Shown: positions 1 through 19,655 of the stretch, one piece after another | Layout of the letters: each line of letters opens with the position of its first letter | Numbering within the stretch: the first letter of the stretch is position 1 | Source: a bacterium ADurb.Bin236 | Lineage (GTDB): Bacteria > UBP15 > UBA6099 | Assembly: GCA_002069885.1 (NCBI GenBank) | Contig: MWCD01000002.1 | Span: 1 to 64,000 of the forward strand | Direction: 5' to 3' | DNA: 64,000 nucleotides | Translations under genes and position numbers: made by a program | Notes under the pieces: model-generated | What the model was told of the DNA's origin: nothing | The model's database searches: none | The model's input: only the letters and a program-made list of their open reading frames with translations

Positions 1-1613
1 TGATATCCACGATAGCGACAGGCACGGCTCCCCTGACGGTGGCATCCACAACGGTGGTGACCAACCTGAACGCGGACTTGTTGGACGGATATCACGCGAC
101 TGATTTTGCGGCTTCTGCGCACTCACACGCGACATTGACGCGTGGCACAGGACTTACCGGCTCGAACTATGACGGCTCGACCGCAACAACATGGGCGGTT
201 TCATACGGCTCGGCTGCCGGCACGGCGGTGCAAGGCGACACGTCAATAACTATAACCGCAGGAACCGGGATGAGCGGAGGCGGAAGCATCACGCTTGGCT
301 CTGGTGGCACGGTGACTCTTAATAACAATGACGCAGGGTCTTCTCAATTCATATTCAAAAACATCGCAGACACCACGCCGACAACGCAGTTTTCAGCGAC
401 AACAAATAACGACACGATCCAATTCGCAGCGGGCGGAAGAACGACGGTGTCATTCACGCCTGCCAGCAAAAGGGTGACATATACCACAACGCTTTCCACG
501 TTGACGCGTGGCACAGGATTGACCGGTTCGAACTATGACGGCTCAGCGGCGCAGACATGGGCGGTAGATTTCGGCACGACGGCGACGACAGTGGCGGCCG
601 GCAACCACACGCATACGAATATGGTGACAGGAACAGGCACGGCGGACAGAGTGGCGTACTGGAACTCTGCAAGCACGATAGCATCAGGGGGCCTCTACTG
701 GGACAACACGAACAGCAGGTTGGGCGTTGCGGTCGCCCCCGGCACATATGCGCTTAACGTGTCCGGCACGGCGAACATATCAGGCAACACGACGATAGGC
801 GGAACGCTTGGAGTGACAGGAGCGATAACGGGGTCGAGCACAGTTCAGGGAACAAGACTGATATCCACGGTTGCTACGGGAACAGCGCCTCTGACGGTGG
901 CGTCGACCGATCTCGTGACAAACCTGAACGCGGACTTGTTGGATGGCAATCACGCTTCCGCATTCGCGACATCAGGCCACACACACGCGCAGTTGACAGC
1001 CGGCACAGGAATTTTGTTGACTGCCTACGACGGCTCAACCGCGAGGTCGGTTTCGCTGGACAAAGACTACACGGACTCATTCTATGTTTTGAAAGCCGGC
1101 GACACTATGACAGGAACTTTGCAGGGCAGACAGTTGAACCCGACGGCGAACAATACATATACCCTCGGAACCTCCGCCCTCAGATACAGCACGGCATATA
1201 TGGTAAATCTTAACGCATCTGGAACAGGAACCGTTTCCGGACTATTAACGCTGGGAACGCAAGCCACAGGAACGGGGCATGCCGTGCGCGCGGATAGATC
1301 GATAACGCTGGCCACAAGCAATGGAATACTCGTTAACGGCACCACATCTCAAACACAGGATCTGACAGCCAATAGGACATACAACCTTTCGCTGGACAAG
1401 TCGCACACAAATTGCGCGTTTACTGCGGCCACGACTTTGAACGTAGCGGCTCAAGACACATCATGCGCGGCAGGTTTCTGCGCCATTGCCGCTGTGGACG
1501 GCGCCGCCTACACAACCAGCGCGTCGGCGAAACATGACAGCGCGTCGCTGTATTTCAACGGAGGCGTCGCGCAGATTGCCACGCTTAGAGTGTTGTGCTG
1601 TCCGTGCCAGTAA
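1..1613 (+). CDS. Tail-fibre-like repeat protein, 3' part of gene (5' end outside window)
   Basis: The frame is open to the left edge of the window, so the GTG at 39 is not a credible start and the gene begins upstream. The visible protein is low-complexity and rich in Thr, Gly, Ser and Ala. It carries two NLNADLLDG(Y/N)HA blocks followed by a SHAT/GHTHA segment, and two copies of an LTRGTGLTGSNYDGS block about 120 residues apart. The ADLLDGxHA motif is typical of phage tail-fibre and related structural fibre proteins; this family link is from memory of the motif. The extreme C-terminus is Cys-rich and ends in CCPCQ, which is odd for a fibre. No other phage structural gene lies within the window, so it may be the end of a prophage or a stand-alone surface fibre. 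Confidence 0.7.
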   Translation, partial: ISTIATGTAPLTVASTTVVTNLNADLLDGYHATDFAASAHSHATLTRGTGLTGSNYDGSTATTWAVSYGSAAGTAVQGDTSITITAGTGMSGGGSITLGSGGTVTLNNNDAGSSQFIFKNIADTTPTTQFSATTNNDTIQFAAGGRTTVSFTPASKRVTYTTTLSTLTRGTGLTGSNYDGSAAQTWAVDFGTTATTVAAGNHTHTNMVTGTGTADRVAYWNSASTIASGGLYWDNTNSRLGVAVAPGTYALNVSGTANISGNTTIGGTLGVTGAITGSSTVQGTRLISTVATGTAPLTVASTDLVTNLNADLLDGNHASAFATSGHTHAQLTAGTGILLTAYDGSTARSVSLDKDYTDSFYVLKAGDTMTGTLQGRQLNPTANNTYTLGTSALRYSTAYMVNLNASGTGTVSGLLTLGTQATGTGHAVRADRSITLATSNGILVNGTTSQTQDLTANRTYNLSLDKSHTNCAFTAATTLNVAAQDTSCAAGFCAIAAVDGAAYTTSASAKHDSASLYFNGGVAQIATLRVLCCPCQ

Positions 1614-5281: not shown

Positions 5282-5309
5282 TTGTTTCGTTAGAGAAGCA
5301 TGGTATAAT
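5282..5309 (+). promoter_or_regulatory. Sigma70-type promoter for the gene at 5378
   Basis: TTGTTT at 5282-5287 and a consensus TATAAT at 5304-5309 with 16-bp spacing. The ATG at 5378 lies about 62 bp beyond the expected start of transcription. Confidence 0.5.
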
Positions 5310-5377
5310 AACATTAATTCTGAGCGTATGAGAGAGACGCCGCATAGAGCGCGAACCATTGATGTCAGGAGAAGATT

Positions 5378-6982
5378 ATGGAGATTCTTTCAACTAAAAT
5401 ACGATTGGATATCCCGCTCTGTTTAATCGGAATTAAGGACAAATCTAAAACGCTGATGTTTTTTTCATTTTCTCATGGCCTTTCAGTCTGGCTTGCTTTT
5501 TTTATGGTCTTTTGCGATATATCCAACTCGGCGGCAGCAGTAGATATGAAAGCAGTTTCAGCTTTGGAGATTACCAGAGAGTCGCTAGCAAATACTGATT
5601 TAGAGTTTTTAGACGATGTGATTGTGAAGGTTTACAGCCCTTCGTTGGTTCTTTTGGCGGAAGGAAAGATGGAGCAAAGCAAAACGTTTTCCATTGAAGT
5701 TCCCGGATTGGACGACTATGAATGGTTATACGTGGAAATCGGCGAACAAGAGAGTCATATATACGGCATATTTAACATTGAAGAAGGCGTGGTTGTGGAC
5801 TATGTAACATCCACGATTATGGAAGCAATGCTGAAAATGAAAACGCGAATGGAGAACATTACATTTGAGGAAATGAAGCATATTTTGTATGAGCTTCATA
5901 AAGCGGCTGATGCAGATGAATTATCCAAAGCAAAAAACGACTCGGACGCGATACGAATGCTTTTTTCGGACGAGGAGTATAGGCTTATGCTCGGCGATAT
6001 GGCTATCTCTTTTTCGACTCCCGGAAACACATTGGAAGAATATGTAAAGCTCAATGAGACCATGAGTCAAGGGATTAGTTTATTCGGCAAGGGCGACGTA
6101 GAAGCATTAAAAATGATGCTGACTGTCGACGCTAAAATCGAAATTGATGGTCAAACGGTGACTGGGGATCAGATAATTGATTCTCTTCGGTCATTAAGGA
6201 ATAAATACGAAGTTTTGAAATGGGACGCTTCATGCGAAAGAATAATCGTCAACGAGAATCGCGCGGAAGTTGAAACATTGGAAAGAATCATTCTGTCAGA
6301 CAAAACTGAAGGCTCGATAACAAAAAACATCAGAATGGGCTTTGTTAATATCTTTGTAAAAAATGAAAATCAATGGAAACTTCAGGAAAGACGAATGAAG
6401 AAATGCGAGCCGGCAAGCGCGTTGATTTTTGCGGACGGCTCGTCGGCGGATTGGACGGGCATAAGACCTTGTGTTTCGAAATTCACATCAAAGAGCGGAT
6501 TAAAAGGGGAAAAGGCTGAACTTAGCTCGATATATATGGCGTTCGATGACCACGGCATTTTCTGGAGATTGGAAAACACAAATAATTTATTTGAAGAGAG
6601 TTTCGGCGACGCTTCCGCTGCTCTGATTGACGAAACGACTCATGTTATGTACGTGGTTTCGTTATTAAACGAAGTTAGCGGCAAAACTGAAGAGGGAGTG
6701 CATAGCTGGACGGGCGTAAACGCAGGCAAGGAGTATTCGATGAATGAAACATCAATGACTGCCCCGGATGGTTTTAATGAAAAAATGAGATACTTGCCTG
6801 ACAATTTTCACGTGGGGGCGTCTTTTGCCGAGGGAACATTATCAAAGAAAGAAATAAAAGGCTTGAATAAAACGGCGTTTTTGAACGCAAGAATTATTAT
6901 TGACAGAGGGGATGGGAAAACCGAAGTGTTGTCAGAGGGCGTGCCGATTGAATTCGAAGTTCCTTTATTGTTGCTTCAATAA
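5378..6982 (+). CDS. Exported protein with a SnoaL/NTF2-like segment, function unknown
   Basis: 534 residues, ATG preceded by AGGAGA at good spacing. A hydrophobic stretch near residues 25-50 (FFSFSHGLSVWLAFFMVFC) followed by Ala-rich residues suggests an uncleaved anchor or a late signal peptide. The middle part (about residues 225-345) reads MSQGISLFGKGDVEALKMM, later VKNENQWKLQERRM; this is the pattern of a SnoaL/DUF4440-type NTF2-like domain (an inference from fold-like pattern only). The C-terminal 180 residues begin with FADGSSADWTGI, as in carbohydrate-binding-like sandwich domains, but I cannot assign a family. It lies between the B12-type RSAM pair and the HXS cluster. The HXS promoter starts only 7 bp after its stop, so it is probably a separate transcription unit. 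Confidence 0.75.
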   Translation: MEILSTKIRLDIPLCLIGIKDKSKTLMFFSFSHGLSVWLAFFMVFCDISNSAAAVDMKAVSALEITRESLANTDLEFLDDVIVKVYSPSLVLLAEGKMEQSKTFSIEVPGLDDYEWLYVEIGEQESHIYGIFNIEEGVVVDYVTSTIMEAMLKMKTRMENITFEEMKHILYELHKAADADELSKAKNDSDAIRMLFSDEEYRLMLGDMAISFSTPGNTLEEYVKLNETMSQGISLFGKGDVEALKMMLTVDAKIEIDGQTVTGDQIIDSLRSLRNKYEVLKWDASCERIIVNENRAEVETLERIILSDKTEGSITKNIRMGFVNIFVKNENQWKLQERRMKKCEPASALIFADGSSADWTGIRPCVSKFTSKSGLKGEKAELSSIYMAFDDHGIFWRLENTNNLFEESFGDASAALIDETTHVMYVVSLLNEVSGKTEEGVHSWTGVNAGKEYSMNETSMTAPDGFNEKMRYLPDNFHVGASFAEGTLSKKEIKGLNKTAFLNARIIIDRGDGKTEVLSEGVPIEFEVPLLLLQ

Positions 6983-6988
6983 TCCACA

Positions 6989-7016
6989 TTGACATATATA
7001 CAGACTTAAATATACT
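6989..7016 (+). promoter_or_regulatory. Sigma70-type promoter of the HXS cluster
   Basis: Perfect TTGACA at 6989-6994 and TATACT at 7011-7016, 16 bp apart, placing transcription start near 7023 and about 30 nt before the first cluster ATG (7054). It is the best promoter-like sequence seen upstream of the plus-strand cluster. Confidence 0.7.
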
Positions 7017-7053
7017 ATAGATAAGATATGTTATTATTGAATGGGATATAACT

Positions 7054-7614
7054 ATGCCTAAAATGCCGATTGAAATTGTTTTTGACTCGAAGATTTTTTC
7101 TGCTGACGCCATTCTTGGGGCTTGTCATAAATTTCTGGCAAAATGTTTTATCACATTAGAACACAGCGAGGACGGCAAGAGAATAATCGCTAGTCTTACA
7201 GCGAGAGAGGGCGTATCCGCAGAGGGGCTTGAAGACGAGTTTCGGGCCGAAACGCTGAATTATGCAGTGAAGCAAAAAATCAACAAAGGGTCGGCTAAAA
7301 TAAGAGACCAGATATTTCACATAGTGTTCAACCCGGAAAGATTGAACGCGCTCGGCGGACAGCTTCAGACGGAGCTTGAAACCAAGGCGGACCCGGATTC
7401 GGTCAAACTCAGCGCGCGGCTTGAAAAGCTCCTTGAGGAGATTGAAAGCGAGGAGTCGATGGGCTATGAGGAGGACCCGCTCGGAATAGCTGTTCCGTGG
7501 GAGGAGAAACATGGAATGCCCGGCGATCTGTTGCACCCCGTGGATCAGTTAAAGAGGCAGGCCGAAAACAATCTCATAAACATAGAAACGGTGAAAGAAA
7601 TTGTCGACTGTTGA
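7054..7614 (+). CDS. HxsD-like protein with C-terminal extension
   Basis: 186 residues. The first 90 (IEIVFDSKIFSADAILGA onward to DEFRAETLNYAVKQKI) match the pattern I know for HxsD of His-Xaa-Ser systems: a beta strand, FDS-type turn, a helix, strands, and a final helix with an EF-A-x-L-N-type stretch. HxsD is a small protein of unknown biochemical role encoded next to the maturases, perhaps a peptide-binding partner. The remaining 95 residues are acidic and contain ESEESMGYEEDPLGIAVPWEE. The next gene is a shorter relative and overlaps by 14 nt. Assignment rests on pattern and neighbours, not on a search. Confidence 0.65.
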   Translation: MPKMPIEIVFDSKIFSADAILGACHKFLAKCFITLEHSEDGKRIIASLTAREGVSAEGLEDEFRAETLNYAVKQKINKGSAKIRDQIFHIVFNPERLNALGGQLQTELETKADPDSVKLSARLEKLLEEIESEESMGYEEDPLGIAVPWEEKHGMPGDLLHPVDQLKRQAENNLINIETVKEIVDC

Positions 7615-7810
7615 ATTTGACAAAAAGATATTTGCAATGAAGGCCGTGAAATCCGCCGTGAAAGACTACAAGGATTTTGCGAATTTCGACGTGACTGAGA
7701 GAAAAGACCGAATCGTCGTGAAGATTGACAATATTGACTACGAGCCGAAGGAAGTTTTTCTGGGTGAATTCGGAAACTACGTGATCCACAAAATGAGCGT
7801 GAGACAATGA
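7601..7810 (+). CDS. Short HxsD-like protein
   Basis: 69 residues. VEFDKKIFAMKAVKSAVKDY aligns with IEIVFDSKIFSADAILGACH of the preceding gene, and LGEFGNYVIHKM aligns with its EFRAETLNYAVKQK. This makes it a compact paralogue. The homologous stretch begins before the first ATG (7637), so the TTG at 7601 is the likely start, overlapping the upstream stop by 14 nt and suggesting translational coupling. Its own stop overlaps the HxsB start (ATGA). It is therefore tightly bound to the maturase in expression and probably in function, possibly as a peptide-recognition subunit. That role is inference. Confidence 0.65.
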   Translation: MSTVEFDKKIFAMKAVKSAVKDYKDFANFDVTERKDRIVVKIDNIDYEPKEVFLGEFGNYVIHKMSVRQ

Positions 7811-9315
7811 GCGCGATAGATATAAAAAAAGTCAAAACTTCGAACTTTAGCGGAATGATGCCGTTCAGTTTCAGAAAAATGGGCGACACGTATATTGTTG
7901 TAAACGAGTATGGAAATTACGTTTTTTTAACGAAAGAAGAATTCGTCAGCCTTGTTGAAAACGGGCCTTCGGCGTTGAGCAGGCCGGTGATAAAAGAGCT
8001 TACGGCGCAGAACATGCTGTTCACAAAAGAAACGGCGGCCAGAGCCGCCGAGAGGCTCAGGGCGAGGTTCGCGGATGCGGCGCGAGCGACGAACCTTCAT
8101 ATAATAGTGCCCACCCTCAGATGCAACCTGCGTTGCGTTTACTGTCAGGCTGCGGCAATGAGCGGCGATAATTACGAAACGGACATGAACACGGACACCG
8201 CGCGCGCGGTGGTCGAAACCATATTCGACGCCCCTACGAAACTGTTGAGCATCGAGTTTCAAGGCGGCGAGCCTCTTCTAAACTGGGACACGGTAAAGTT
8301 TATTATCGAATACGCCGTCGAGCTTAACAAAACGAAAAAGAGAGAACTGAGATTCAACATTGTTTCCAACCATCTTCTGATGGACGACGAGAAGCTGGAT
8401 TTCCTGCTGGAGCACAATGTGGTTATGTGCATGTCTCTGGACGGCCCGGCTTTCGTGCATGACAAGAACCGGGGAATCACTCACGACCGCGCGGTTGAGA
8501 TGTATAAGAAAGTTTATCGCAGATACAAGGAAGCCGGAACGGAGAGGCTGCCTTCTCTAATCGGCACCCTTTCTAAACACTCCATGCCGTATCACAAAGA
8601 AATCGTGGATGAATATCGTTCTCTAAATGCCGGGTCGATTTTTGTGCGTCCCGCCACGACTCTGGGCTATGCCGGCAGGAATTGGGAGAAGATAGGTCTT
8701 ACCCCGGAAGAGTTTCTCGATTTTTATGAGAGGATGTTGGATTACATAATCGAGTTGAATATAAAGGGAGAGAATTTTACCGAAACATACGCTATATACG
8801 CGCTGTGTAAAATCGTCGCGGGCTTCGAACCGGGATATGTGGATATGAAGTCGCCGTGCGGGGCTTCCATAGGACAACTAGCCTACAATTACAATGGAGA
8901 TGTGTACACATGCGACGAGGGCCGTATGTTGGGACATCAGGGAGACCATACTTTCAGGGTGGGCAAATGCGGCGAGTCGAGTTTTGCGGACTTAATAATG
9001 CACAGGGCGACGAAGGCTTGCGCGATCGCTTCCACGCTGGACACAACTCCGGGGTGTTCAGAGTGCGCATACAGGCCGTATTGCGGGATATGCCCCGTCC
9101 TTAACTATCATGAGACCGGCGAGTTATCCCCGAATGTTTTTACCACGCGAAGGCACACTGTCAACGAAGGAATAATTGATATAATCTTCAAAAGGCTGAT
9201 GATTCCCGAAATTGGAGACATATTCGTCCAGTGGACAAAAAACTATATGGAATCGAGCAGCAGAGAAATAGAAGGCGTCAAGGAGACGGAGGAGGACAAA
9301 GCCGGGAAAGAATAG
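7807..9315 (+). CDS. hxsB: His-Xaa-Ser system radical SAM/SPASM maturase HxsB
   Basis: 502 residues. The N-terminal segment FSFRKMGDTYIVVNEYGNY plus VFLTKEEF is characteristic of HxsB as I recall the family. The radical SAM cluster motif is LRCNLRCVYC (C106, C110, C113), followed by FQGGEPLLNW. A SPASM domain follows (about residues 350-430): CGASIGQLAYNYNGDVYTC, then CSECAYRPYCGICPV, giving Cys ligands for auxiliary 4Fe-4S clusters. Such enzymes modify ribosomally made peptides; the HXS chemistry is not known to me. It starts at an ATGA overlap with the short HxsD-like gene and lies directly upstream of three His-rich precursor genes, its likely substrates. Confidence 0.85.
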   Translation: MSAIDIKKVKTSNFSGMMPFSFRKMGDTYIVVNEYGNYVFLTKEEFVSLVENGPSALSRPVIKELTAQNMLFTKETAARAAERLRARFADAARATNLHIIVPTLRCNLRCVYCQAAAMSGDNYETDMNTDTARAVVETIFDAPTKLLSIEFQGGEPLLNWDTVKFIIEYAVELNKTKKRELRFNIVSNHLLMDDEKLDFLLEHNVVMCMSLDGPAFVHDKNRGITHDRAVEMYKKVYRRYKEAGTERLPSLIGTLSKHSMPYHKEIVDEYRSLNAGSIFVRPATTLGYAGRNWEKIGLTPEEFLDFYERMLDYIIELNIKGENFTETYAIYALCKIVAGFEPGYVDMKSPCGASIGQLAYNYNGDVYTCDEGRMLGHQGDHTFRVGKCGESSFADLIMHRATKACAIASTLDTTPGCSECAYRPYCGICPVLNYHETGELSPNVFTTRRHTVNEGIIDIIFKRLMIPEIGDIFVQWTKNYMESSSREIEGVKETEEDKAGKE

Positions 9316-9424
9316 GCTTTGTTGAAGGCGCCGCGCGGGAGAATCGCGGAGCCGCGTCTGAGCCGACAACACGGAACTAGTTCGACCGGATGCCGGCGAA
9401 TGTTCCGGAAAACGAAGGTGGGAC

Positions 9425-10234
9425 ATGGACAAACCAACGAAAAAAACGCCGACCGCCGTCGCGCCTATGAATAAGAGGGGCGCGCTTCCTTCCGCAGTAA
9501 ACGACACTCTGTCATATTTCTCGCGGGAAGAAGCTAAGATATCGAGCAAAGGGGTGGTGACAGGCGCGTTGACCGTGGTGGCGTTGGGCCTTGTGGCGAC
9601 TCCGACTCCTGCCCTCCACACCAGTTTTCACGCCAATTTCGGAACGCACACAAACCAAGGCGGAGTGAACACTCACTCTAGCGTGGCTTCGGCTAATCTT
9701 CACACCAACGCAGGCTCGCACGCCAACGCTTCCGCCGCGACCGGACACTACAGCATAGCGAACCACGCCAGCAAGCCGGTAGTAAACGCGCACAACAGCG
9801 TGAACAATCATACAAACGCGAATGTCGCAAACCATGCGAGCACTCTAGCGACCAACGTGACGGTGAAAGCGGCGGTTAGCGAGAACGTGACGAAGGGCAG
9901 TTTCCACAACAACGGCGCTCAAGGCAAACACACCGCTTGGAACGCGCACGCGAGCGCGGCGGCGGTCCACGCGAATACGGCGGCCACCACGTCGCATACG
10001 AGCACGGCGAGTCTCAACAAACATAACAGCGTCAACACGCACGCGAGCGGAGCCGGAGTCGATTCGCATTCCAATGTGAACGCGCACGCAAGCTGGCCGG
10101 TGGTAGATACTCACATCAGCGTCAACAACCATGCAAACGCCGCCGGTTTCACAGCTCACACGAACGTGTCGGCCGTTAACACTCACACTAACACGGCAGA
10201 ACATACGAACCACAATTCTCACGCGTCTTGGTGA
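9425..10234 (+). CDS. His-Xaa-Ser/Asn repeat precursor 1 (HxsA-like)
   Basis: 269 residues, ATG preceded by GAAGGTGG. A basic N-terminus is followed by a leader-like segment, LSYFSREEAKISSKGVVTG, then a hydrophobic run (TVVALGLVATPTPAL) that could be a membrane or export segment. From residue 65 the protein is almost only H, N, S, T, A, V and G with about 27 histidines, in repeats of the form (V/A)NxHx(S/N), for example VNTHSS, ANLHTN and VNNHTN. A central block interrupts the repeat: TKGSFHNNGAQGKHTAWNAH. It ends in NSHASW. The HxS repeat defines HxsA proteins, but length, Asn variants and the two extra conserved blocks differ from the short repeat I know. It sits 109 bp after hxsB. Confidence 0.85.
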   Translation: MDKPTKKTPTAVAPMNKRGALPSAVNDTLSYFSREEAKISSKGVVTGALTVVALGLVATPTPALHTSFHANFGTHTNQGGVNTHSSVASANLHTNAGSHANASAATGHYSIANHASKPVVNAHNSVNNHTNANVANHASTLATNVTVKAAVSENVTKGSFHNNGAQGKHTAWNAHASAAAVHANTAATTSHTSTASLNKHNSVNTHASGAGVDSHSNVNAHASWPVVDTHISVNNHANAAGFTAHTNVSAVNTHTNTAEHTNHNSHASW

Positions 10235-10279
10235 TAAATTGCGCCTTATTCTCTGGCCGCAGGCCGAGGGGTGGAACAA

Positions 10280-11080
10280 ATGGAAAGAGAAAAGAATAAA
10301 TCGGCGAAGGCGGGTGAAAAAAAACTGCTTCCCGCGATAAAGAGCGACGCTGCAGCTTACTTTCTTAGAGAGGAAGCCAAGGTAAGCACAAAAGGGATAG
10401 CGGCCGGAGCTGCGGCGCTGATAGCGTTAGGAATGATATCGGACCCGACTTGGGGATGGCATTCCTCAGTTCATGCGAATATAAATCTTCACACGAACCA
10501 AGGCGGCGTCAACGGGCACACGAACACGGGCGCGGCAAACATGCATTTCAACTCTTCATCGCACGTTAATCTGGCCGCAGTCAATACGCATTCGAGCATA
10601 AACACACACTCTAGCGCCGGAGCGGTGGACACGCATTCGAGCATCAACAGCCATACCAACCAAACGGCGGCTGGAGGCCATTCCAACGCTGGGCACACAA
10701 ACGCGGCGGCGGTTCATTCCAACGAAACCGTCACAAGGGGCGGGTTTCATAACAGCGGCTCGCAAGGAAAACACAGCGCGTACAACGCGCATTCAAACGC
10801 GAGCGAATCCTCGCACGTAAACTCGGCGGGAACCAACACCCACACCAGCGTAGCGGCTATTTCGAGACATGTCTCGGTAGCCAACCACAGCAACACGGCG
10901 GCGGTCAATTCCCATACGAGCGCAGCGGCTCATTCCAGTTCACCGGCGCAGAACCAGCACGCAAACGCCAATTCCCACGCCAGCAGAGTGGCTTACAGCG
11001 GACATAGAAACCTCGAAGCGACCAACCTGCACAGCAATTCTTCGAGTCATGTGAACCACGGCTCGCACGCTTCATGGTGA
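10280..11080 (+). CDS. His-Xaa-Ser/Asn repeat precursor 2 (HxsA-like)
   Basis: About 266 residues from the ATG at 10280, which has GAGGGGTGG just upstream; a GTG at 10271 is an alternative. Same plan as precursor 1: leader AAAYFLREEAKVSTKGIAAG, hydrophobic run (AAALIALGMI), then about 29 histidines in NxHx(S/N) units (VNTHSS, INTHSS, INSHTN). The central block TRGGFHNSGSQGKHSAYNAH matches that of the paralogues, with Tyr instead of Trp. The C-terminus is GSHASW. Lies 45 bp after precursor 1 on the same strand and clearly arose by duplication. Probable substrate of HxsB and the downstream RSAM enzymes (inference from context). Confidence 0.85.
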   Translation: MEREKNKSAKAGEKKLLPAIKSDAAAYFLREEAKVSTKGIAAGAAALIALGMISDPTWGWHSSVHANINLHTNQGGVNGHTNTGAANMHFNSSSHVNLAAVNTHSSINTHSSAGAVDTHSSINSHTNQTAAGGHSNAGHTNAAAVHSNETVTRGGFHNSGSQGKHSAYNAHSNASESSHVNSAGTNTHTSVAAISRHVSVANHSNTAAVNSHTSAAAHSSSPAQNQHANANSHASRVAYSGHRNLEATNLHSNSSSHVNHGSHASW

Positions 11081-11135
11081 AAAAGGGCTGAGACAACCGC
11101 AAGGATTTATAGAATCGCATAGGAGAAGGTGGAAT

Positions 11136-11942
11136 ATGAAAAAAAACGACCGGCCTTCCAAGCAGATTGAAAGAGCGATTTCTCTCCCCGGAGCGGCCGC
11201 GGACGCGCTCTCGTATTTCATGCGAGAAGAAGCGAAAATTACGTCGTCGTCCGTAATGAAGGGCGGGCTTGCTCTGGCCGCTCTTGGAATGATGTCTTTC
11301 CCGGAAATAGTGAAGTCGGCGCATGAGAGCCTCCACGTAAGCTGGAACAATCACGCAAACAGAGCCGCCGAGGCATACCACATCAACGTAGCGGCCATAA
11401 ACCAGCATGTAAACGCCAACACCCATTCCAGCAGAGCGGCGACAGCGGCTCATTCCAACGTGAACACCCACGCCAGCACGGCGTTGGTAGACGCGCACAA
11501 CAGCGCTAACGTCCATGCCAGCACGGCGGCTGTGAACACCCACGCCAGCAAGCCGGCGATTAACGTGGCGGCGGTCCACGCGAGCGCCGCTGTGACAAAA
11601 GGCAACTTACACAACAATTCGGCTCAGGGAAAACACACTGCTTGGAACGCGCACACGAGCCAAGCCACCAGCGCCCACACCAACACCGCCGCAACTACGA
11701 CCCACAACAATGTGGCCGCGTCAAGCATTCACTCGAATGTGAACTCACACGCCAGCGCCGGAGCATTAAACACTCATAGAAATCACAATAACTCGATAAG
11801 CTCGCCGGCTGTGAACAGGCACGCGCATATCACGTCCCATTCCAACGCGGTGGCAACCAACGTCCACGCCAGCATTGTGGCCGTAAACATGCACAGCAAC
11901 GCAAACACGCATGGAGCGCATAACTCGCACAGCTCATGGTGA
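11136..11942 (+). CDS. His-Xaa-Ser/Asn repeat precursor 3 (HxsA-like)
   Basis: 268 residues, ATG preceded by a strong AGGAGAAGG. Leader DALSYFMREEAKITSSSVMKG and hydrophobic run (GLALAALGMM) correspond to those of precursors 1 and 2. About 29 histidines follow in NxHx(S/N) units (VNTHAS, VNSHAS, HSNVNTHAS). The central block is TKGNLHNNSAQGKHTAWNAH and the C-terminus NSHSSW. The conserved YFxREEAK leader, QGKH block and SHxSW end across three otherwise drifting sequences suggest recognition sites for the maturation enzymes or for secretion. The strongest ribosome site of the three may mean highest expression. Confidence 0.85.
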   Translation: MKKNDRPSKQIERAISLPGAAADALSYFMREEAKITSSSVMKGGLALAALGMMSFPEIVKSAHESLHVSWNNHANRAAEAYHINVAAINQHVNANTHSSRAATAAHSNVNTHASTALVDAHNSANVHASTAAVNTHASKPAINVAAVHASAAVTKGNLHNNSAQGKHTAWNAHTSQATSAHTNTAATTTHNNVAASSIHSNVNSHASAGALNTHRNHNNSISSPAVNRHAHITSHSNAVATNVHASIVAVNMHSNANTHGAHNSHSSW

Positions 11943-12022
11943 CGCGAGGCCGCGCGAGTTTTTAAGCAATTGTTTTAATTGCAAAAATGAGCAAAGATAA
12001 TTAAATATTTTCTTTGGGGGAT
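11943..12022 (+). promoter_or_regulatory. Hairpins and weak promoter-like sequence between precursor and enzyme genes
   Basis: After the third precursor, a short GC-rich self-complementary stretch (CGCG...CGCG at 11943-11954) is followed by TTTTT at 11959-11963. A perfect 6-bp stem, GCAATT/AATTGC with a 5-nt loop, lies at 11966-11982. TTGCAA (11979-11984) and TAAATA (12002-12007), 17 bp apart, could be a weak promoter. This arrangement could lower read-through from the precursor genes into the enzyme genes, but each element alone is weak. Confidence 0.3.
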
Positions 12023-12097
12023 ATGAAGGTCGGGAGGCGCATGGGTTTCACCGACGGATTTAACATCTTGAACCCGCTGAAGAATGACAAGGAATAG
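12023..12097 (+). CDS. Possible tiny ORF upstream of the HxsC-like gene
   Basis: ATG 12023 to TAG 12095-12097 encodes 24 residues beginning MKVGRRMGFTDG and ending NPLKNDKE. An internal ATG at 12041 would give 18 residues and has GGGAGG 3 nt upstream, closer than usual. The ribosome site of the next gene (AAGGA, 12089-12093) lies inside the end of this ORF, and its stop is 5 nt before the next ATG, as in coupled genes. It could be a coupling leader, a minute peptide, or chance. No family is recognised. Confidence 0.3.
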   Translation: MKVGRRMGFTDGFNILNPLKNDKE

Positions 12098-12102
12098 CGA
12101 CA

Positions 12103-13053
12103 ATGGGGAGTTTCGGCTACTTTCAGATAACACGGCGGTGCGATCAGCGCTGCCTGATTTGCTCAAATCCCGAGAACGACAACTCGATATCCTTTGAGAA
12201 GGGGATAGCGTATCTTGATTCGCTGATGTCTGACGGCGGGTATGAGGGCGTTATTATTACAGGAGGAGAGCCGACCCTGTCGGAAGACCTTCCCGAATAC
12301 CTGAAACATTGCGACAGGAAGGGTTTTCCCAGCGTTCTCATCACGAACGGGCAGAACTTGGCCTCAACGGCTTTCGCAAGGAAACTGAAAGCGGCAGGGC
12401 TGGAGAAGGTTGTCCTTTCGCTTTATTCGAGCGACCCGAAAATTCAGGGCAAACTGACCGGCAACCCGGATTCATTGAGCAACGTGAACAAAGCGGCGGC
12501 GAACTTGGAGAAGCTTGGCGGAATAACGCTGAGCGTCACCATAACCATGAACAAGCTCAATGCGGATCACCTCAGCCGAAACGTCGAACACATCGCAAAG
12601 CGCATGCCGAGCGTCAACCACGTGGTTTTCAATAACTTGGACCCGCTGATGAACAGGGCCGCCCAGCACCCGGAAACCCTGCACAGGCTTAACGACATCG
12701 ATATAGAGTTGACTAGGGCGGTTGACATGCTGCGAAGCAACAAAATGACATATCGAATAGAGAGAGTTCCCCTTTGCTATATGGGCGGATACGAGCACAA
12801 CTCGACTGAAACCCGGCGAATAGTGAAAAACGAAAAAGTAAAAATTTTGTTTCTTGACGAAAAAGGGGAGGTGGACCAAGCGCAGGGCGATTTCCTGTAC
12901 GGGAAAGCCGAATGTTGCAAAGTCTGCTATCTGAACGACATCTGCATAGGGTTGTATTCTATGGACGATCGCTATATGTCAGAGGAACTGTTCCCGGTGT
13001 TTCACACAACCAAGGAAGAAGTCGCCGAGAAAGTTCTTTCAAACGCGCCGTGA
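12103..13053 (+). CDS. HxsC-like radical SAM enzyme
   Basis: 316 residues. ITRRCDQRCLICSNPEND gives the CX3CX2C cluster motif at C13, C17 and C20, followed by IITGGEPTL (GGEP SAM-binding motif). The CxICSNP stretch and early motif position resemble HxsC, the second maturase of HXS systems, which I recall with a similar C-x-x-C-S-x-P sequence. The C-terminal part has CCKVCYLNDICIG, probably ligands for an auxiliary cluster. Position directly after the precursors supports the HxsC role, but a generic RSAM peptide maturase remains possible. Ribosome site AAGGA is 9 nt before the ATG. Confidence 0.7.
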   Translation: MGSFGYFQITRRCDQRCLICSNPENDNSISFEKGIAYLDSLMSDGGYEGVIITGGEPTLSEDLPEYLKHCDRKGFPSVLITNGQNLASTAFARKLKAAGLEKVVLSLYSSDPKIQGKLTGNPDSLSNVNKAAANLEKLGGITLSVTITMNKLNADHLSRNVEHIAKRMPSVNHVVFNNLDPLMNRAAQHPETLHRLNDIDIELTRAVDMLRSNKMTYRIERVPLCYMGGYEHNSTETRRIVKNEKVKILFLDEKGEVDQAQGDFLYGKAECCKVCYLNDICIGLYSMDDRYMSEELFPVFHTTKEEVAEKVLSNAP

Positions 13054-13095
13054 CGCGGTTGCGAGCGGCGCGCCCGCAGCCTACTGGAGAAGGAA

Positions 13096-14016
13096 ATGGA
13101 CAACAGGCTCGACCTTAAAGTCGGATATAACTGCAATAACTACTGCAAACATTGCGTCATTGGAGACAAGCGTTTTTTCATACCCGACAGGACGACAAGG
13201 CAGTTGAAGGACGTGCTTGAAGAAGAAAAAGACAATTATCAGGAAGTGGTTTTCACTGGCGGCGAATTCACCATACGGAAAGACTGTTTCGAGCTGCTGA
13301 GCCATGCCGCTTCTCTCGGCTACAAGATTCTTATCCAGACGAACGCCAGAAGATTCGCGTACAGCGCTTTTTGCGACGAGTTCCTAGCCGCCGGGCAGGG
13401 GAAGATAATGACGGTGACTGGGGCGTTGCTTTCGGCTAACTCCGACTGCCACAACTACCTCACCGGAGCAGACAGCTACCGACAGACCGTCAAAGGGCTA
13501 TGCAACCTCAAAGCGCGCGGGCAGCAGGTTTCGATAAACACTGTGGTCACCAAGGTTAATTACAGGACATTCCCGGATCTGGCAAGATTCCTGATAAGAA
13601 TCGGCGTCGATGTTTATCAGTACGCGTTCGTCCACGCGCTCGGCAGCGCCGATAAAAACATCTTATCCATCCTTCCTAAAAAATCTTTGGTCGTTCCTTT
13701 CATCAAGATGGGCATTGATATAGGGCGGGCGGCTGGCGTTCCCGTTTATGTCGAAGCGATACCTTTCTGCCTGATGCAGGGCTATGAAAGAAATATTGCC
13801 GAGAACTATATACCGCAAGTGAAGCTGAACGATGTCACAAACACCGTGGCCGACTTCGACTACGTGCGGAAAACATACGAAAAAGAAAAGGCTCCCTCCT
13901 GCAGGAAGTGCGCCTGCTTCAGCGTTTGCGAAGGCCCGTGGATACAGTATCCCAGAACTTACGGCTGGAAGGAATTCGAGCCTATAGCCCCTGTAAAAGC
14001 GGCCGCCAAATCATAA
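13096..14016 (+). CDS. Radical SAM enzyme of the HXS cluster
   Basis: 306 residues, ATG preceded by GGAGAAGG. The cluster motif is YNCNNYCKHC (C13, C17, C20). The following GGE motif reads FTGGEFT, with Phe replacing the usual Pro. The C-terminus has CRKCACFSVCEGPWIQYP and then YGWKEFEP, a compact Cys-rich ending resembling shortened SPASM-type auxiliary-cluster sites; the gene at 16341 ends in a similar C..C...C-G pattern. Not part of the minimal HxsABCD set as I know it. Spacing (42 bp after the HxsC-like gene, 31 bp before the next) and strand place it in the same transcription unit, so a second modification step on the precursors is the simplest reading. Confidence 0.75.
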   Translation: MDNRLDLKVGYNCNNYCKHCVIGDKRFFIPDRTTRQLKDVLEEEKDNYQEVVFTGGEFTIRKDCFELLSHAASLGYKILIQTNARRFAYSAFCDEFLAAGQGKIMTVTGALLSANSDCHNYLTGADSYRQTVKGLCNLKARGQQVSINTVVTKVNYRTFPDLARFLIRIGVDVYQYAFVHALGSADKNILSILPKKSLVVPFIKMGIDIGRAAGVPVYVEAIPFCLMQGYERNIAENYIPQVKLNDVTNTVADFDYVRKTYEKEKAPSCRKCACFSVCEGPWIQYPRTYGWKEFEPIAPVKAAAKS

Positions 14017-14047
14017 CGGACTGAATGAAGGGTCGGAGAGCTTGTAG

Positions 14048-15067
14048 ATGAGCGAAAAAAAAACCGAATGCGCAAGCGGAATTTCCTCTCAATCCGAGAA
14101 ACCCCTTTTCGGATGGTATGAACCGCAGTATCTACGAGACATCTGCGAAGCGAGAGGCGGCACGGGGCAGCTATTTCTCTATTATTCCGTCTTGGCGGGT
14201 CTTAAGCCGGCGCTCGACGAGTGGGTCCCGACCGACAGGCTCGATAGATATCTCAAGGTTTGCGAGGAACACGGCCTGCTGACGGAAATTGAATCCGTTT
14301 TCTACAACGAAACTTCAGACGAAGTGAGAGATTCCATAGGCGGAGAGTTCCTCACCACTACGGTGGCCTGCGGCGCGCCTGCCGGTTCGGGCTACTCTGG
14401 GCGCGCTCATATTTATGTTTCCAAATCCGAGGAGGCCCTTGATAGAATCAAAAGGACGGGATGGTATCCCATTTCAATAAATCGGAGAATAGTCACCAAG
14501 CCTCAGATAGACTATATGTGGTTCGGAGAACATCTCGGATACCCGAAATGCTGCATCGATTACTTCTCCAGAGTGAACAATCATTCGCTGTACCCCAACA
14601 CGCTTATGCTTCCGTTCAAGAATACCAAGTCGAAGCCCAACTACCTGTGCAACTCTCTCGTGAAGGACGCTTATTGCTATCTTTATCACATTCCCTGCGG
14701 GTTCGACTGTTGCGCCACGGCGGAACTCTCCGCCGAACTGAGGGATTTCATCCAGAAACACGATCGCGGTTACGCGGATTACATAGACAGGCACATGAAA
14801 CTCAACTTCATCGTTTTCAGAGAGAGAGACATATACGCTTTCGACGGAGTTCCCGAAGGAAATGTTCTCAGATACAACATCTCGGCCTTCGTTGACAACT
14901 ACCTTTATCCCGGAGAACTTCTAGGCGTTTTCGCCAACAATGACACTCTAGTGATTCACGAGGATAAAATCCTTGTGATGAGAGACGGAAAGATAACTAA
15001 CACAATATATAAAACGGAAAGGGCGGAATGGTTCTTCATTTCGTTTGCAGATGATAACACCATTTGA
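14048..15067 (+). CDS. GYPKCC-motif protein (DUF483-like), function unknown
   Basis: 339 residues, GGAG upstream of the ATG. Not a radical SAM protein. The centre carries FGEHLGYPKCCIDYFS (about residues 160-175) and, about 50 residues later, HIPCGFDCCATAE. The pair GYPxCC and hxPCxxxC resembles the DUF483 domain as I remember it, a family of unknown function with paired cysteines that could bind metal or an Fe-S cluster. The N-terminal 100 residues are helical-looking; the last 80 look like beta structure (EDKILVMRDGKITNTIYK). The following RSAM gene starts inside its 3' end (17-nt overlap), so the two are translated together. Possible roles are substrate carrier, metal-site protein or peptide-binding partner; all are speculation. 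Confidence 0.65.
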   Translation: MSEKKTECASGISSQSEKPLFGWYEPQYLRDICEARGGTGQLFLYYSVLAGLKPALDEWVPTDRLDRYLKVCEEHGLLTEIESVFYNETSDEVRDSIGGEFLTTTVACGAPAGSGYSGRAHIYVSKSEEALDRIKRTGWYPISINRRIVTKPQIDYMWFGEHLGYPKCCIDYFSRVNNHSLYPNTLMLPFKNTKSKPNYLCNSLVKDAYCYLYHIPCGFDCCATAELSAELRDFIQKHDRGYADYIDRHMKLNFIVFRERDIYAFDGVPEGNVLRYNISAFVDNYLYPGELLGVFANNDTLVIHEDKILVMRDGKITNTIYKTERAEWFFISFADDNTI

Positions 15068-16301
15068 CGAAGGCTTGGCAAAGATGCTGTCGGTCAATTA
15101 TGACTTGCGCCCGTACAGGGAGTACAACGACTATTCATTCGATATCTCAAACAACATGACTCTGATATCTCAGATCACGTTGATGGCTTACAACAACCCG
15201 GAGCGCTTTGAGTCTCTTAAAGGATTCCTCGCCAACTATGCAAGAAATGCGGTCTCCGATCAGTCTCTTGCCAGCGCCGCATACTGCCGCTATGCGGACA
15301 GGGAGTTCGACGAGGGCGTGAATCTGGCGACTTCCCTTCTCGAATTCCGCCCGACGGACTTGGACGCATGGCTGGACGTATGCTTCTTCCTATCGCATAT
15401 TTCCGACGGATACCGCACTCATCTAAACATGAGATTTCATCTCTGCCACTTTATTCACTTCTATTTGAAGTATGATTTCCGGGAAGTGAACAAGGAGTCT
15501 ATCAGCATTTTAGACAGACTCGTAAGGCGCGCGGCGGAGAGCGATCCCGGCATTCGAGAAGGATACGACAGCAAAGCTGCTTTTGACACCGAATACCTGA
15601 TCCTCAACGGCGCCTGCAATAATAATTGCGAAATATGCCACACCCCGGTCAGGCTCAGAGACTATGATTTCGAGGACCGCATAACAAAAATCGGGTCTTT
15701 GCCGTTGTCCAGATACATTTTTATCAAAGCGCGGAAGAAGAAAATTAAGGACTTCGTGCTCAAGGGCGGAGAACCGACGCTTCACCCTGATTACCTGAAA
15801 ATAGTGAGGATGCTGGTGGCGGCTAGAAAAGACATTTCGATTCGCGTAAGGTCCAACGCCAGAGTGTTTTTCGACGAGAGACGGCTGAACAAGCATGTCG
15901 AGGCCAATGTGTCAAACATGACAATCGAAGCCGGAGTCTATTCGGCGGACCCGGAAAAACACGACGCAATAGCTCGGGCGAGGGGAAGCCACGCTCAAAC
16001 AGTCGCCGGGATTAAAAATGTTCTCTCCTCCGGCATGAAAGCTTCGGCCAGAATCACTCTCTGCGACTCAAACATCGGAGATCTGCCGAAAATTCTGGAT
16101 TTCGTTCTTGAAACGTTCGGCTCGCAACCGGGTTTTGTGGAAGCGGCGGTTCTGCTTCCGCCCCCGAGCGGAGAAAGCCTCGCTAAGTATTATCCGGACG
16201 GAGTGAAACGGCTCCGCGACGCCGCCGTTAAAATAGTCGCTGAACGCCAACATTGCGGAAGCATTGTGACTATGCCGAACGCCGTTCTGGCCCTTGACTG
16301 A
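15051..16301 (+). CDS. Radical SAM enzyme with N-terminal helical domain
   Basis: About 416 residues from the ATG at 15051, which overlaps the upstream stop by 17 nt. An ATG at 15084 with GAAGG upstream is an alternative start. The first 180 residues show no known motif and look helical (SQITLMAYNNPERFESLKGF, DREFDEGVNLATSLLEFRP, reminiscent of TPR-type helices). The radical SAM core follows: LNGACNNNCEICH (about residues 189-196) and LKGGEPTLHPDY. The C-terminus lacks a Cys-rich SPASM-like site, unlike the neighbouring RSAM enzymes. The N-terminal domain may bind the repetitive precursor or the GYPKCC partner; this is inference. Confidence 0.75.
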   Translation: MITPFDEGLAKMLSVNYDLRPYREYNDYSFDISNNMTLISQITLMAYNNPERFESLKGFLANYARNAVSDQSLASAAYCRYADREFDEGVNLATSLLEFRPTDLDAWLDVCFFLSHISDGYRTHLNMRFHLCHFIHFYLKYDFREVNKESISILDRLVRRAAESDPGIREGYDSKAAFDTEYLILNGACNNNCEICHTPVRLRDYDFEDRITKIGSLPLSRYIFIKARKKKIKDFVLKGGEPTLHPDYLKIVRMLVAARKDISIRVRSNARVFFDERRLNKHVEANVSNMTIEAGVYSADPEKHDAIARARGSHAQTVAGIKNVLSSGMKASARITLCDSNIGDLPKILDFVLETFGSQPGFVEAAVLLPPPSGESLAKYYPDGVKRLRDAAVKIVAERQHCGSIVTMPNAVLALD

Positions 16302-16340
16302 ACGGATGTCGCGAAGAAAATCGAACTCCTCTAACTTGCG

Positions 16341-17870
16341 ATGAACGAATATAACTCAGAGAATAAAAAATATTGGGTTAGGCTTACGCGCGTCTGCAAC
16401 AACAACTGTCTGTTCTGCCTAGACGCAGACGAGCAGAACGGAAGCTATGAGCCGACGGAAAGCATCCTTGCGTTGTTGCGGGAAGGCCGCGCGAGGGGGT
16501 TCGATCAAGCTGTTCTGTCCGGCGGCGAACCCACTCTTCATCCTGATTTCTTCGCAATTGTGTCAGAAACAAAGAAAATGGAATACAGGAGGACGCAAAC
16601 CATAACCAACGGCCGGATGTTCAGCTATGCCGGCTTTGCCGAAAGAGCCGTTGCCGCCGGGCTGGATGAAGCGACTTTCTCTCTGCACGCCGGAGCCCCG
16701 TCCGCCTTCGAGACTCTCACCCGGACTCCCGGAAGCTATGACGAGGCTTTGAAAGGTTTTATGAGAGCGGCAAAACTTTCCGGCCTTGCGGTTTCTGTAG
16801 ACATTTTGTTGACAGCAAGCACAATACCCAGCCTTACAGATTGGATTAAAAGATTGTCTGACTTAGGGGCGTCTGAGTTCGACATATTGTATCCGATTCC
16901 TTTCGGCGAGGCGTGGAAGCATAAAAACGATATTTTTTTCAACCTAGATGAGAGCGCAAAGGATATTGTCAAAGCGTTCGAGTTCTGCGAAGAACGAGGC
17001 GTCAAAGCGTGGTCGAACAGAATACCGGCTAGAGTGTTCGAGGGCGCGGAAAGGTTTATTCAATCGCCGTTGAAACTCAGAGTCGAGGTGGAAGCTAAGA
17101 GGGGCATGTTCGAAGACCTTGCGAATAGAGGAGTGGAACCGCCTTGCTCTGGAGATAGATGCGCTTTTTGTCATGTGACCGATTTCTGCCGCTCGCTAAG
17201 GAAGTTTTCGGGCGCAATCGCATCAAAGAAATCGCCTTCGATTATTATAACGGAGAACAACGTTGCTCGGCTTGGCGGGGGTTTTCCTTATGAGCCGGAA
17301 ACGATTGTTATAGACGGTCTCGGCATTTTGGAAAACGAGCAGATGAAGCGTTATTTTTTGAAAAGGGACATTCGCATTGAGGCGATCATTAATAAACCTT
17401 TTGAAAATTATCAAAGAATCCCGGATATCGTTTCTACGGTTTATCTGGAAATCAATAGAGAAACCGCAAAAAACCTGTCAAACATCGGAAGCGCTTTGCT
17501 AGATAAAGTTGAGCTGAAAATTATTATGAGAGGGCGCGCTACGCTTGAGGAAACATTGGGAAAAGACATTCCGATAGCTGGTTTCATGCGAGAGTTTTTA
17601 AGAAGCGGAAACATGGAAATAGAGATATTAAATGTCCCACGATGTCTGACCGGGCGCGAGGAGATGCGCGTGTTTGACGCTGTGCCGGCAAACGTGTTCA
17701 AAAGCAGCGGAGAAATCGATTTGGACGAATATGTAGGCTGCTATATGGCAAACTGGATGAGCGAAAAGAGCGCTAGGTGCGCCGGATGTAGTCATTATGC
17801 CGATTGTCCGGGGATTCATATAAACCATGTGAGAGCTTTCGGGTTTTCAAACATTCCGTTCGGAATATGA
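16341..17870 (+). CDS. Large radical SAM enzyme with two C-terminal Cys clusters
   Basis: 509 residues, no clear ribosome site. The RSAM core is N-terminal: LTRVCNNNCLFC (C19, C23, C26) and LSGGEPTLHPDF. A first Cys group, CSGDRCAFCHVTDFC, lies at about 270-285. A 200-residue extension (PETIVIDGLGILENEQM onward) ends in a second group, CAGCSHYADCPGIH, followed by VRAFGFSNIPFGI. That final C..C...C-G pattern resembles the end of the RSAM gene at 13096. The extension alternates beta and helix but I cannot name its fold. Last gene of the plus-strand cluster, 38 bp before the convergent HemN-like gene. Confidence 0.75.
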   Translation: MNEYNSENKKYWVRLTRVCNNNCLFCLDADEQNGSYEPTESILALLREGRARGFDQAVLSGGEPTLHPDFFAIVSETKKMEYRRTQTITNGRMFSYAGFAERAVAAGLDEATFSLHAGAPSAFETLTRTPGSYDEALKGFMRAAKLSGLAVSVDILLTASTIPSLTDWIKRLSDLGASEFDILYPIPFGEAWKHKNDIFFNLDESAKDIVKAFEFCEERGVKAWSNRIPARVFEGAERFIQSPLKLRVEVEAKRGMFEDLANRGVEPPCSGDRCAFCHVTDFCRSLRKFSGAIASKKSPSIIITENNVARLGGGFPYEPETIVIDGLGILENEQMKRYFLKRDIRIEAIINKPFENYQRIPDIVSTVYLEINRETAKNLSNIGSALLDKVELKIIMRGRATLEETLGKDIPIAGFMREFLRSGNMEIEILNVPRCLTGREEMRVFDAVPANVFKSSGEIDLDEYVGCYMANWMSEKSARCAGCSHYADCPGIHINHVRAFGFSNIPFGI

Positions 17871-17908
17871 CGTAGCGGCTAACGGCGAATCCGGCCTTGT
17901 CTTTTGGA

Positions 17909-19327
17909 TTATGTGGAAATGATGATTTCACCGCGCGGGCGCTTTGCTACGGATATAAGCTCCTCCTGATTGTAGAAAAATTTCGAAAGAACGGCTTTTT
18001 CAAAACCATCGCAGAGCATCTCTATGGAATCGTCGCCGACGCTCAACTTGCCCAAGTTTTGCAGTGTTTCAATTTCATCTCTAAAAACCGACTCGATTTC
18101 GAGTCCGAAGACGGTTTTGAACAAAGAACGCGAAACATTTCCAGTTTTGTAAAAGGCTTTCAGAACGAAGTCCCTCATGCGATCGGCAGGCTCGCGCCGG
18201 GAGAATCGATAAACAGAGTCACTGAATCTGAAACCCGGATCCAGCGGGTTCGGAACCCGACCGAGAGCAGCGGAGCCGCCCGGACCGAAGTTGATAGTCT
18301 CGGCCGCGTTTTCCATGAACGACCTTGCCCCGACTCCCAGCCCGATCATCGAGTTTCTCATTTCGGGATGCCACTCGGTAGGCTGGTTGCCGATTAGACA
18401 GACGAAATCCTTTCTCACGAACAACTGACTATTAAGGAAAGGATTTGAAGAATAATTAGTATATCCTGCGCGCGAGGCTGCGTCGACTGTCGCCTCAAGA
18501 TACCTGACCGCGAAATCTTCCGAGTTCTCCGTAATATAGTTTTTTCTTGCTTCTTCACCGTATCGGGAGTTCTCAAGTCTGAAGAAATAAACGTTGATGG
18601 TTGAGGGGCCTAATTGAGAAATTGCTTCAAATGAATCCCTGAAGCCATCGACGCTGTCGCCCGGCAATCCCGCTATTAGATCGAAATTCACCGCGTCCAC
18701 TCCTAGAGAGCGAAGCCGATCCGTTATCCGAGAAAGACAGTCGATGTCCGCGTAATCCCTTCCGGCATTGCTAAGTGCAGCGGGGTTTAAAGATTGAACG
18801 CCAACGCTAATCCTGTTTACGCCTGAGGAGACCGCAACCGCAAGTTGTTCGTCCGTGACTTGCGTGGGTTTTATTTCCAGTGTCCGCGACCCACCGGCGG
18901 TAAAGCTAAAATTCGAGTTTATCTCCGAGAAAAGTTTTTTCAGAAGCTTCTCGGACAACAGCGTCGGCGACCCTCCTCCGATGTGCATTGTCTTAAAATG
19001 GAAATTCTTGAAAGCTCCGGAGAAAAATGAAGCCTCCTTTGCCAGATACCCGACATATTTTCCTAGTTCCGATTCGCTCTCAATTATCCGGGAGTTATAC
19101 ATGCAATAGAGGCATTTGCGCTTTTCACAATACGGCACGTGAACGTAAAGAGATAAAAAAGGCTCGTTTTTATCAGAAAGAAATCCGCGCCAATGCTTGA
19201 GAGCTTCGTCAGGGGCTATATAACTGTCTATCCCGGTCGAAAGATAAACATAAGGATTAAATAGGTTATACTCTTTGGTCAGCAGTTCATATAATTCGAT
19301 TTTTTTGAGAGCGTTGCGATAATCCAT
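17909..19327 (-). CDS. HemN/HemW-like radical SAM protein with unusual CX4CX2C motif
   Basis: 472 residues. The order YVHVPYC, HIGGGSPTLL, SVGVQSLNP, VNFDLIAGLPGD is that of the coproporphyrinogen oxidase-like HemN/HemW family. That family normally has CX3CX2CXC; here the DNA reads VPYCEKRKCLYCMYN, giving C67-X4-C72-X2-C75 with an extra residue and no fourth cysteine. A C-terminal winged-helix-like segment is present (VSRSLFKTVFGLEIESVFRDEIETL). An oxygen-independent haem oxidase role is therefore doubtful; a chaperone-like or peptide-modifying role is possible. It faces the HXS cluster and is not in its operon. Confidence 0.7.
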   Translation of the reverse strand: MDYRNALKKIELYELLTKEYNLFNPYVYLSTGIDSYIAPDEALKHWRGFLSDKNEPFLSLYVHVPYCEKRKCLYCMYNSRIIESESELGKYVGYLAKEASFFSGAFKNFHFKTMHIGGGSPTLLSEKLLKKLFSEINSNFSFTAGGSRTLEIKPTQVTDEQLAVAVSSGVNRISVGVQSLNPAALSNAGRDYADIDCLSRITDRLRSLGVDAVNFDLIAGLPGDSVDGFRDSFEAISQLGPSTINVYFFRLENSRYGEEARKNYITENSEDFAVRYLEATVDAASRAGYTNYSSNPFLNSQLFVRKDFVCLIGNQPTEWHPEMRNSMIGLGVGARSFMENAAETINFGPGGSAALGRVPNPLDPGFRFSDSVYRFSRREPADRMRDFVLKAFYKTGNVSRSLFKTVFGLEIESVFRDEIETLQNLGKLSVGDDSIEMLCDGFEKAVLSKFFYNQEELISVAKRPRGEIIIST

Positions 19328-19475
19328 ATATCTTCCGCGTATAGCGCCGACGTATACAAAATCTTCACCCGCGCGCCAACCAAATTTAAGTAAACACTAT
19401 GTTTGATATTATAATTGATTCGCTTTGATTCCGACCTCATAAATACATTTTCTTTTTTGAGTTGTTGATGAAACC

Positions 19476-19655
19476 GCAGCCCGGAATTTTCACGGGAAAA
19501 TCTGTAAAATCAAATAAAGGGCGATCTATGTCGTTGAATAATAGACTCGAACTGTCGTCACATATGAAACAGCATGCTCTCTCGTTCTAGCTCAAATCGC
19601 CTCGTGCCGCATCCCTTTCTTCGATTTAAATCCGCATTGGTGAAGATTGCGGGCT
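19476..19655 (+). repeat. Dispersed intergenic repeat R2, copy 1
   Basis: About 180 bp, similar over its length to 45640-45820 (shared stretches include AAAGGGCGATCTA and ATCCCTTTCTTCGATTT). Internal arms at 19506-19521 and 19613-19628 are imperfect inverted repeats (AAATCAAATAAAGGG versus the complement of CCCTTTCTTCGATTT). A second stem (CCGCATT/ATTGCGG, one mismatch) lies at the right end. No ORF and no clear flanking duplication. Confidence 0.6.

Follow-up and report, generated by a model that had tools for sequence, protein, structure and literature searches.

The closest described relative of the locus analysed here is the HXS (His-Xaa-Ser) system HxsABCD (TIGR03976-TIGR03978), which PMC9062424 credits to Haft and Basu (2011). 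A second relative is the variant made up of HxsA4, HxsC4 and HxsD_rel (NF038313, NF038332 and NF038315). We followed up a related locus in a 64,000-nt stretch of DNA (the window; positions 1-64,000 of the forward strand of contig MWCD01000002.1) from bacterium ADurb.Bin236 (GCA_002069885.1; UBP15; UBA6099), a member of an uncultured lineage. At 7054-17870, the window carries a plus-strand run of eleven genes (D1, D2, HxsB, A1, A2, A3, C1, C2, GYPKCC, C3 and C4, in this order), which is a real, well-conserved and expanded variant of HXS and not a textbook member of the system. Throughout, G000 denotes the window genome, G001, G002 and G003 belong to the same genus, and G005 comes from a different family of the same order.

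The locus resembles HxsABCD in having HxsB over its cut-off, small HxsD-related proteins, and a His-x-Ser repeat precursor beside radical SAM (RSAM) maturases. In contrast to HxsABCD, it lacks an HxsC or HxsA over cut-off, adds four HxsC-like RSAMs and a DUF483-like protein, and has three long precursors with a histidine every 6 or 9 residues and with asparagine as frequent as serine. The HxsA4/HxsC4/HxsD_rel variant is present in genome G004 and at G005:C205, with relatives in other phyla. G004 and this second G005 locus contain D2, HxsB and at least three HxsC-like enzymes, including orthologues of C1 and C2, and their precursor is a single GSH-repeat protein of about 120 residues that passes the HxsA4 cut-off. 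The window shares with this variant an HxsD_rel over cut-off, several HxsC4-like RSAMs (among them the C1 and C2 orthologues), precursors with an EE(A/G)K leader and a C-terminal HxSW. It differs in that the variant has one short, tight GSH-repeat precursor and a cluster without a GYPKCC gene, whereas C1-C4 of the window fall far under the HxsC4 cut-off.

Gene content and conservation of the run

An earlier, sequence-only reading had placed a set of genes in this run behind a good promoter at 6989-7016. Open reading frames confirm that the genes are present at those positions, the promoter-like site is the best-scoring of the region, and its count of five RSAMs in the run was correct. The RSAM gene that it began at 15051 also exists, but its start is a TTG at 15045, 15051 being an internal ATG. 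The features are as follows.

6989..7016, plus strand: promoter-like site, TTGACA-16-TATACT, 11 of 12 consensus matches, top of 26 sites in 14.5 kb (5000-19500)
7054-7614, plus strand: D1, HxsD-like, 186 aa, with a C-terminal extension; TIGR03976 33.6 bits, NF038315 17.8 bits; orthologues in G001, G002, G004 and G005
7601-7810, plus strand: D2, HxsD-related, 69 aa; passes NF038315 HxsD_rel (72.1 bits, cut-off 41)
7807-9315, plus strand: HxsB radical SAM/SPASM maturase, 502 aa; passes TIGR03978 (474 bits, cut-off 370)
9425-10234, plus strand: A1, His-repeat precursor, 269 aa with 27 His, His spacing 6/9
10271-11080, plus strand: A2, His-repeat precursor, 269 aa, GTG start, paralogue of A1 and A3
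11136-11942, plus strand: A3, His-repeat precursor, 268 aa, paralogue of A1 and A2
12103-13053, plus strand: C1, HxsC-like RSAM, 316 aa, with a C-terminal Cys motif; Pfam Radical_SAM, TIGR03977 96 bits (cut-off 268)
13096-14016, plus strand: C2, HxsC4-like RSAM, 306 aa; NF038332 108 bits (cut-off 500)
14048-15067, plus strand: GYPKCC protein, DUF483-like, 339 aa; PF04467 20.0 bits, below the gathering score of 25
15045-16301, plus strand: C3, RSAM, 418 aa, TTG start, N-terminal extension of about 180 aa; Radical_SAM at residues 188-354
16341-17870, plus strand: C4, large HxsC4-like RSAM, 509 aa, two extra Cys motifs; Radical_SAM 70.9 bits

Adjacent genes overlap or are separated by 31-160 bp, and the terminator-like plus-strand matches inside the run amount to a single weak one, within C2. 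Compared with their G001 orthologues, all eleven genes have ratios of nonsynonymous to synonymous substitution (dN/dS) of 0.03-0.22, which indicates purifying selection; the value is 0.026 for C2, 0.07 for both HxsB and the GYPKCC gene, and 0.12-0.22 for A1-A3, the last range ruling out spurious low-complexity open reading frames as an explanation of the His-repeat genes. Gene order in G001 and G002 is identical to that of the window up to the contig ends, and the G005 cluster keeps the order D1-D2-HxsB-A1-A2-A3-C1-C2-GYP-C3.

The relation to HXS that had been proposed for the locus is borne out by HxsB (474 bits against a cut-off of 370), of which the whole genome holds one copy over cut-off, and by HxsD_rel (72 against 41). 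A search with the NCBIfam HxsA-D models, suggested earlier as a check, upheld the assignment for these two families, but the HxsA, HxsC and HxsD cut-offs were not reached. Six related RSAMs taken from other loci all stayed under the HxsC4 cut-off as well.

Pfam places all of C1-C4 among the radical SAM proteins, and the best NCBIfam match of each is HxsC or HxsC4. They form a single HxsC/HxsC4-like radiation, a pattern that, together with the lack of C4 in the G005 cluster, would suit an ordinary HXS system with lineage-specific redundant duplicates, in which HxsB and a single HxsC-like enzyme would suffice. We consider such redundancy very doubtful, because C1 and C2 are separate, well-supported clades common to several phyla (in a tree with long branches in several rows, that of C3 being the longest), because the neighbour set C2-C4-C1 is found again in other HxsB loci, and because all four genes are under purifying selection. 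Relatives of C1, C2 and C4 are found in many HxsB loci, those of C4 in several phyla. C1-C4 are old, distinct enzymes and not recent duplicates.

The association of the extra genes with HxsB is close. In a domain-wide sample of 337 genomes, C1 orthologues occur in five, all with HxsB and always at the HxsB locus, and C2 orthologues scoring above 400 bits occur in the same five genomes, likewise always at that locus. Weaker C2 relatives occur elsewhere, for example in G246, a genome in which HxsB was not found. The GYPKCC family is present in 5 of the 386 genomes of a second domain-wide sample, 7 of which have HxsB over cut-off; all five GYPKCC genomes carry HxsB, and they represent three independent lineages. 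The main GYPKCC copies lie within the HxsB locus in G000, G001, G005 and G031, while in G002 the gene stands at a contig start and HxsB is on another contig, as expected for a split cluster. Seven multi-RSAM HXS genomes were also picked without regard to the GYPKCC gene, and five of them have it. The genes downstream of the precursors had been read as companions of HxsB, and for C1, C2 and GYPKCC, the families covered genome-wide, they are not genes that occur mostly without it. That the additional RSAMs adjoin HxsB merely by chance is ruled out by the gene order kept across families and by the co-occurrence of C1 and C2 with HxsB.

An HXS system with two RSAMs had been taken as the norm from which this locus alone departs, and this part of the sequence-only reading is not supported. 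An HxsB alignment, run against about 85,000 species genomes, yielded 78 loci in Elusimicrobia, Omnitrophota, Patescibacteria, Deltaproteobacteria, Myxococcota, Schekmanbacteria and further groups. Among 84 related HxsB records, some of them duplicated and many cut by contig ends, 37 have at least five RSAM frames that share the strand of HxsB and lie no more than about 10 kb away, and in most multi-RSAM HxsB loci a His-x-Ser repeat gene adjoins the RSAMs. Large sets of RSAMs beside HxsB are common and in part already catalogued, and they are not the novel part here. The proposal of a distinct subtype or a new system holds as regards a variant, but not as regards a new system, given that NCBIfam already names HxsA2, HxsA3, HxsA4, HxsC4 and HxsD_rel and that multi-RSAM loci are widespread. 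What looks new are the long histidine-lattice precursors, a second precursor array and the link to DUF483.

Histidine-repeat precursors and a second array

Each of A1-A3 begins with a leader of about 60 residues of the form LP...YF..EEAK(I/V)(S/T)..., with an invariant core LP...D..-YF..EEAK, followed by a hydrophobic stretch. Two repeat blocks come next, with a conserved segment, T(K/R)G..HN...QG(K/T)H(T/S)A(W/Y), between them, and the proteins end in SHxSW. The repeat regions contain 25-28 HxS/N units each, compared with 7-10 in shuffled sequences (standard deviation about 2.3), with serine and asparagine about equally frequent. From one histidine to the next, the distances are 6, 9, 9, 6, 9, 6, 9, 6, continuing in this manner, and almost all are multiples of three; this is the GSHGSH triplet register of HxsA4 with histidine kept at a chosen subset of the triplets. 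The histidines are also what is conserved: 27 of 27 in A1, 28 of 29 in A2 and 25 of 29 in A3 are kept in the G005 orthologues (86-100%), against 35%, 40% and 49%, respectively, of the other residues. Across an alignment of 18 precursors, 22 of the 35 invariant columns are histidine, so that conservation in a register of three shows which precursor residues matter. As a side observation, precursors at other HxsB loci, in Elusimicrobia, Omnitrophota and elsewhere (L071, L075, L076, L083, L089, L100, L101 and L109), have GGWC at their C-termini where others have HxSW or GSHGQW; this second type of ending may be the sign of a different product.

Elsewhere in the same genome, at G000:C6:105802-108336 (L155:8288-10840), lies another tandem of three precursors, A1'-A2'-A3', here called the second array. 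Each is orthologous to one of A1, A2 and A3 and 64-67% identical to it, and all 85 of the window histidines are kept, compared with about 61% of the other residues. A repetitive, fibre-like protein of 1053 residues ends about 22 bp before this array, and downstream of it are proteins with signal-like N-termini and DUF11-like sequence. The same arrangement recurs at G003:C13:38928-41506 (L156), and no RSAM genes were found in the 18 kb around the G003 array. These comparisons suggest that the enzymes may act in trans on a surface-protein operon at the second array.

With no RSAM found beside the second array and secreted proteins as its neighbours, one may ask whether the His-repeat proteins are simply unmodified metal-binding (zinc, nickel or iron) or matrix proteins, the RSAMs acting instead on the fibre-like protein or on a small molecule. 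Metal binding would also fit a regular histidine spacing that is conserved above all else. We nevertheless think this unlikely: the leader of A1-A3 resembles that of HxsA4 precursors, the adjacency of His-x-Ser repeat genes and RSAMs is the rule in multi-RSAM HxsB loci, and C1 and full-strength C2 follow HxsB without exception in our sample.

The explanation that we favour, and consider probable, is that the run is an expanded HXS post-translational modification operon in which HxsB and C1-C4 would modify the repeats of A1-A3. The leader would probably be bound by the HxsD-like proteins, and HxsB together with the HxsC-like C1-C4 would then modify the evenly spaced repeat units by radical chemistry. 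Its invariant cysteines, its co-occurrence with HxsB and its fusions to RSAM domains make the GYPKCC protein a probable partner of the RSAMs that would bind a metal or an Fe-S cluster. The modified precursors would probably be exported to become surface or extracellular structural material, in view of their hydrophobic segment and of the secreted proteins that surround the second array. In this explanation, all six precursors, those of the operon and those of the second array, would be substrates of the one enzyme set.

Several results weigh against this explanation. The HxsA models of NCBIfam gave no match to A1-A3 even at an E-value of 10; HxsA4 (NF038313, cut-off 55 bits) likewise had no match at 1e-5 anywhere in G000. 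D1 is under the HxsD cut-off (TIGR03976, 33.6 against 50 bits), and C1-C4 are far under theirs, with a best HxsC score of 96 against 267.9 bits (TIGR03977) and HxsC4 scores of 108 for C2 and 98.5 for C4 against 500 (NF038332). The G005 cluster lacks C4, and close relatives of C3 are confined to this order, with none in other phyla; thus, not every enzyme is essential. An AlphaFold prediction of A1 with seven homologues gave a mean pLDDT of 30 and no usable model, so that a repeat solenoid with rows of histidines gains no support either way. The G000:C6 contig ends 1.5 kb past the second array, and enzymes beyond that point are possible in G000. Finally, in the literature searched, we found no description of HXS chemistry or of the products of its enzymes, the system being mentioned only in passing.

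In a bolder version of this explanation, the single multi-RSAM set would modify all six precursors, including the three encoded in an operon of surface proteins, at a strict histidine lattice. The result would be an extracellular structure that is modified and possibly binds metal or is cross-linked, and DUF483 proteins would be a class of RSAM partners that has so far gone unrecognised. We hold this bolder proposal only tentatively and would not call it probable. If it is true, HXS-type systems would make surface material rather than small peptides. Multi-RSAM HxsB loci are common in metagenome-assembled genomes from phyla that have few members in culture, so that their product, whatever it is, may be widespread. 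Two separate precursor arrays with one enzyme set also constitute a natural experiment.

The DUF483-like GYPKCC protein

To our knowledge, DUF483 (PF04467) is a family without a known function. The region of the window protein that holds the GYPxCC motif, like that of relatives at other HxsB loci, aligns to its profile, but the window protein is longer and stays under the gathering score (20 against 25), which homologues in G005 and G031 pass. In an alignment of 11 relatives, Cys168, Cys169, Asn202, Cys217 and Cys221 are invariant, and the cysteines suggest a possible metal or Fe-S site. Further ties to RSAMs come from domain arrangements: L072:17564-19828 and probably also L159:4906-7479 encode fusions of the GYP domain with an RSAM domain, a DUF483-like domain lies directly beside an RSAM protein at L157:1627-4244, and the frame of a large RSAM at G005:C6 contains a weaker GYP match. 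No HxsB is in view on the contigs that carry the DUF483-like domains of G005:C6 and G002:C104.

The structural model of the GYPKCC protein has a pLDDT of 73.7 and a pTM of 0.76. A structure search of the PDB with this model gave no confident relative, the best match being 2guk, an uncharacterised Porphyromonas protein (Z 7.1, residues 24-178), which spans only two of the four GYPKCC cysteines and may reflect a mere common arrangement; a PDB sequence search gave no match. The co-occurrence with HxsB links DUF483, an uncharacterised family, to radical SAM maturation, with no exceptions among the 386 genomes.

Genes flanking the run

In addition to the five RSAM genes of the run (HxsB and C1-C4), three more flank it, all on the minus strand. 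The neighbouring features are these.

39..1613, plus strand: C-terminal part of a fibre-like repetitive protein, frame open from the contig start; a relative precedes the second array at G000:C6
1712-3061, minus strand: B12-binding RSAM, divergent, possible accessory; B12-binding and Radical_SAM domains
3185-4594, minus strand: second B12-binding RSAM, upstream of the run
5378..6982, plus strand: protein of 534 aa, likely export signal, DUF4440-like part, possible accessory; homologue beside the G005 cluster
17909-19327, minus strand: HemN-like RSAM, convergent with C4, possible accessory; TIGR00538 and others, below cut-off

The B12-binding RSAM at 1712-3061 is 37.6% identical to a gene divergent from the G005 cluster. 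A phage origin found no support, as PHROGs gave no matches for the GYPKCC, 534-aa and fibre-like proteins. The HemN-like gene of G001 (L029:13063-14537) is broken into three frames, by pseudogenization or an assembly error. Outside the genus, the HemN-like RSAM has its best relative in the G031 HxsB locus, and further relatives are found in HxsB loci of other phyla.

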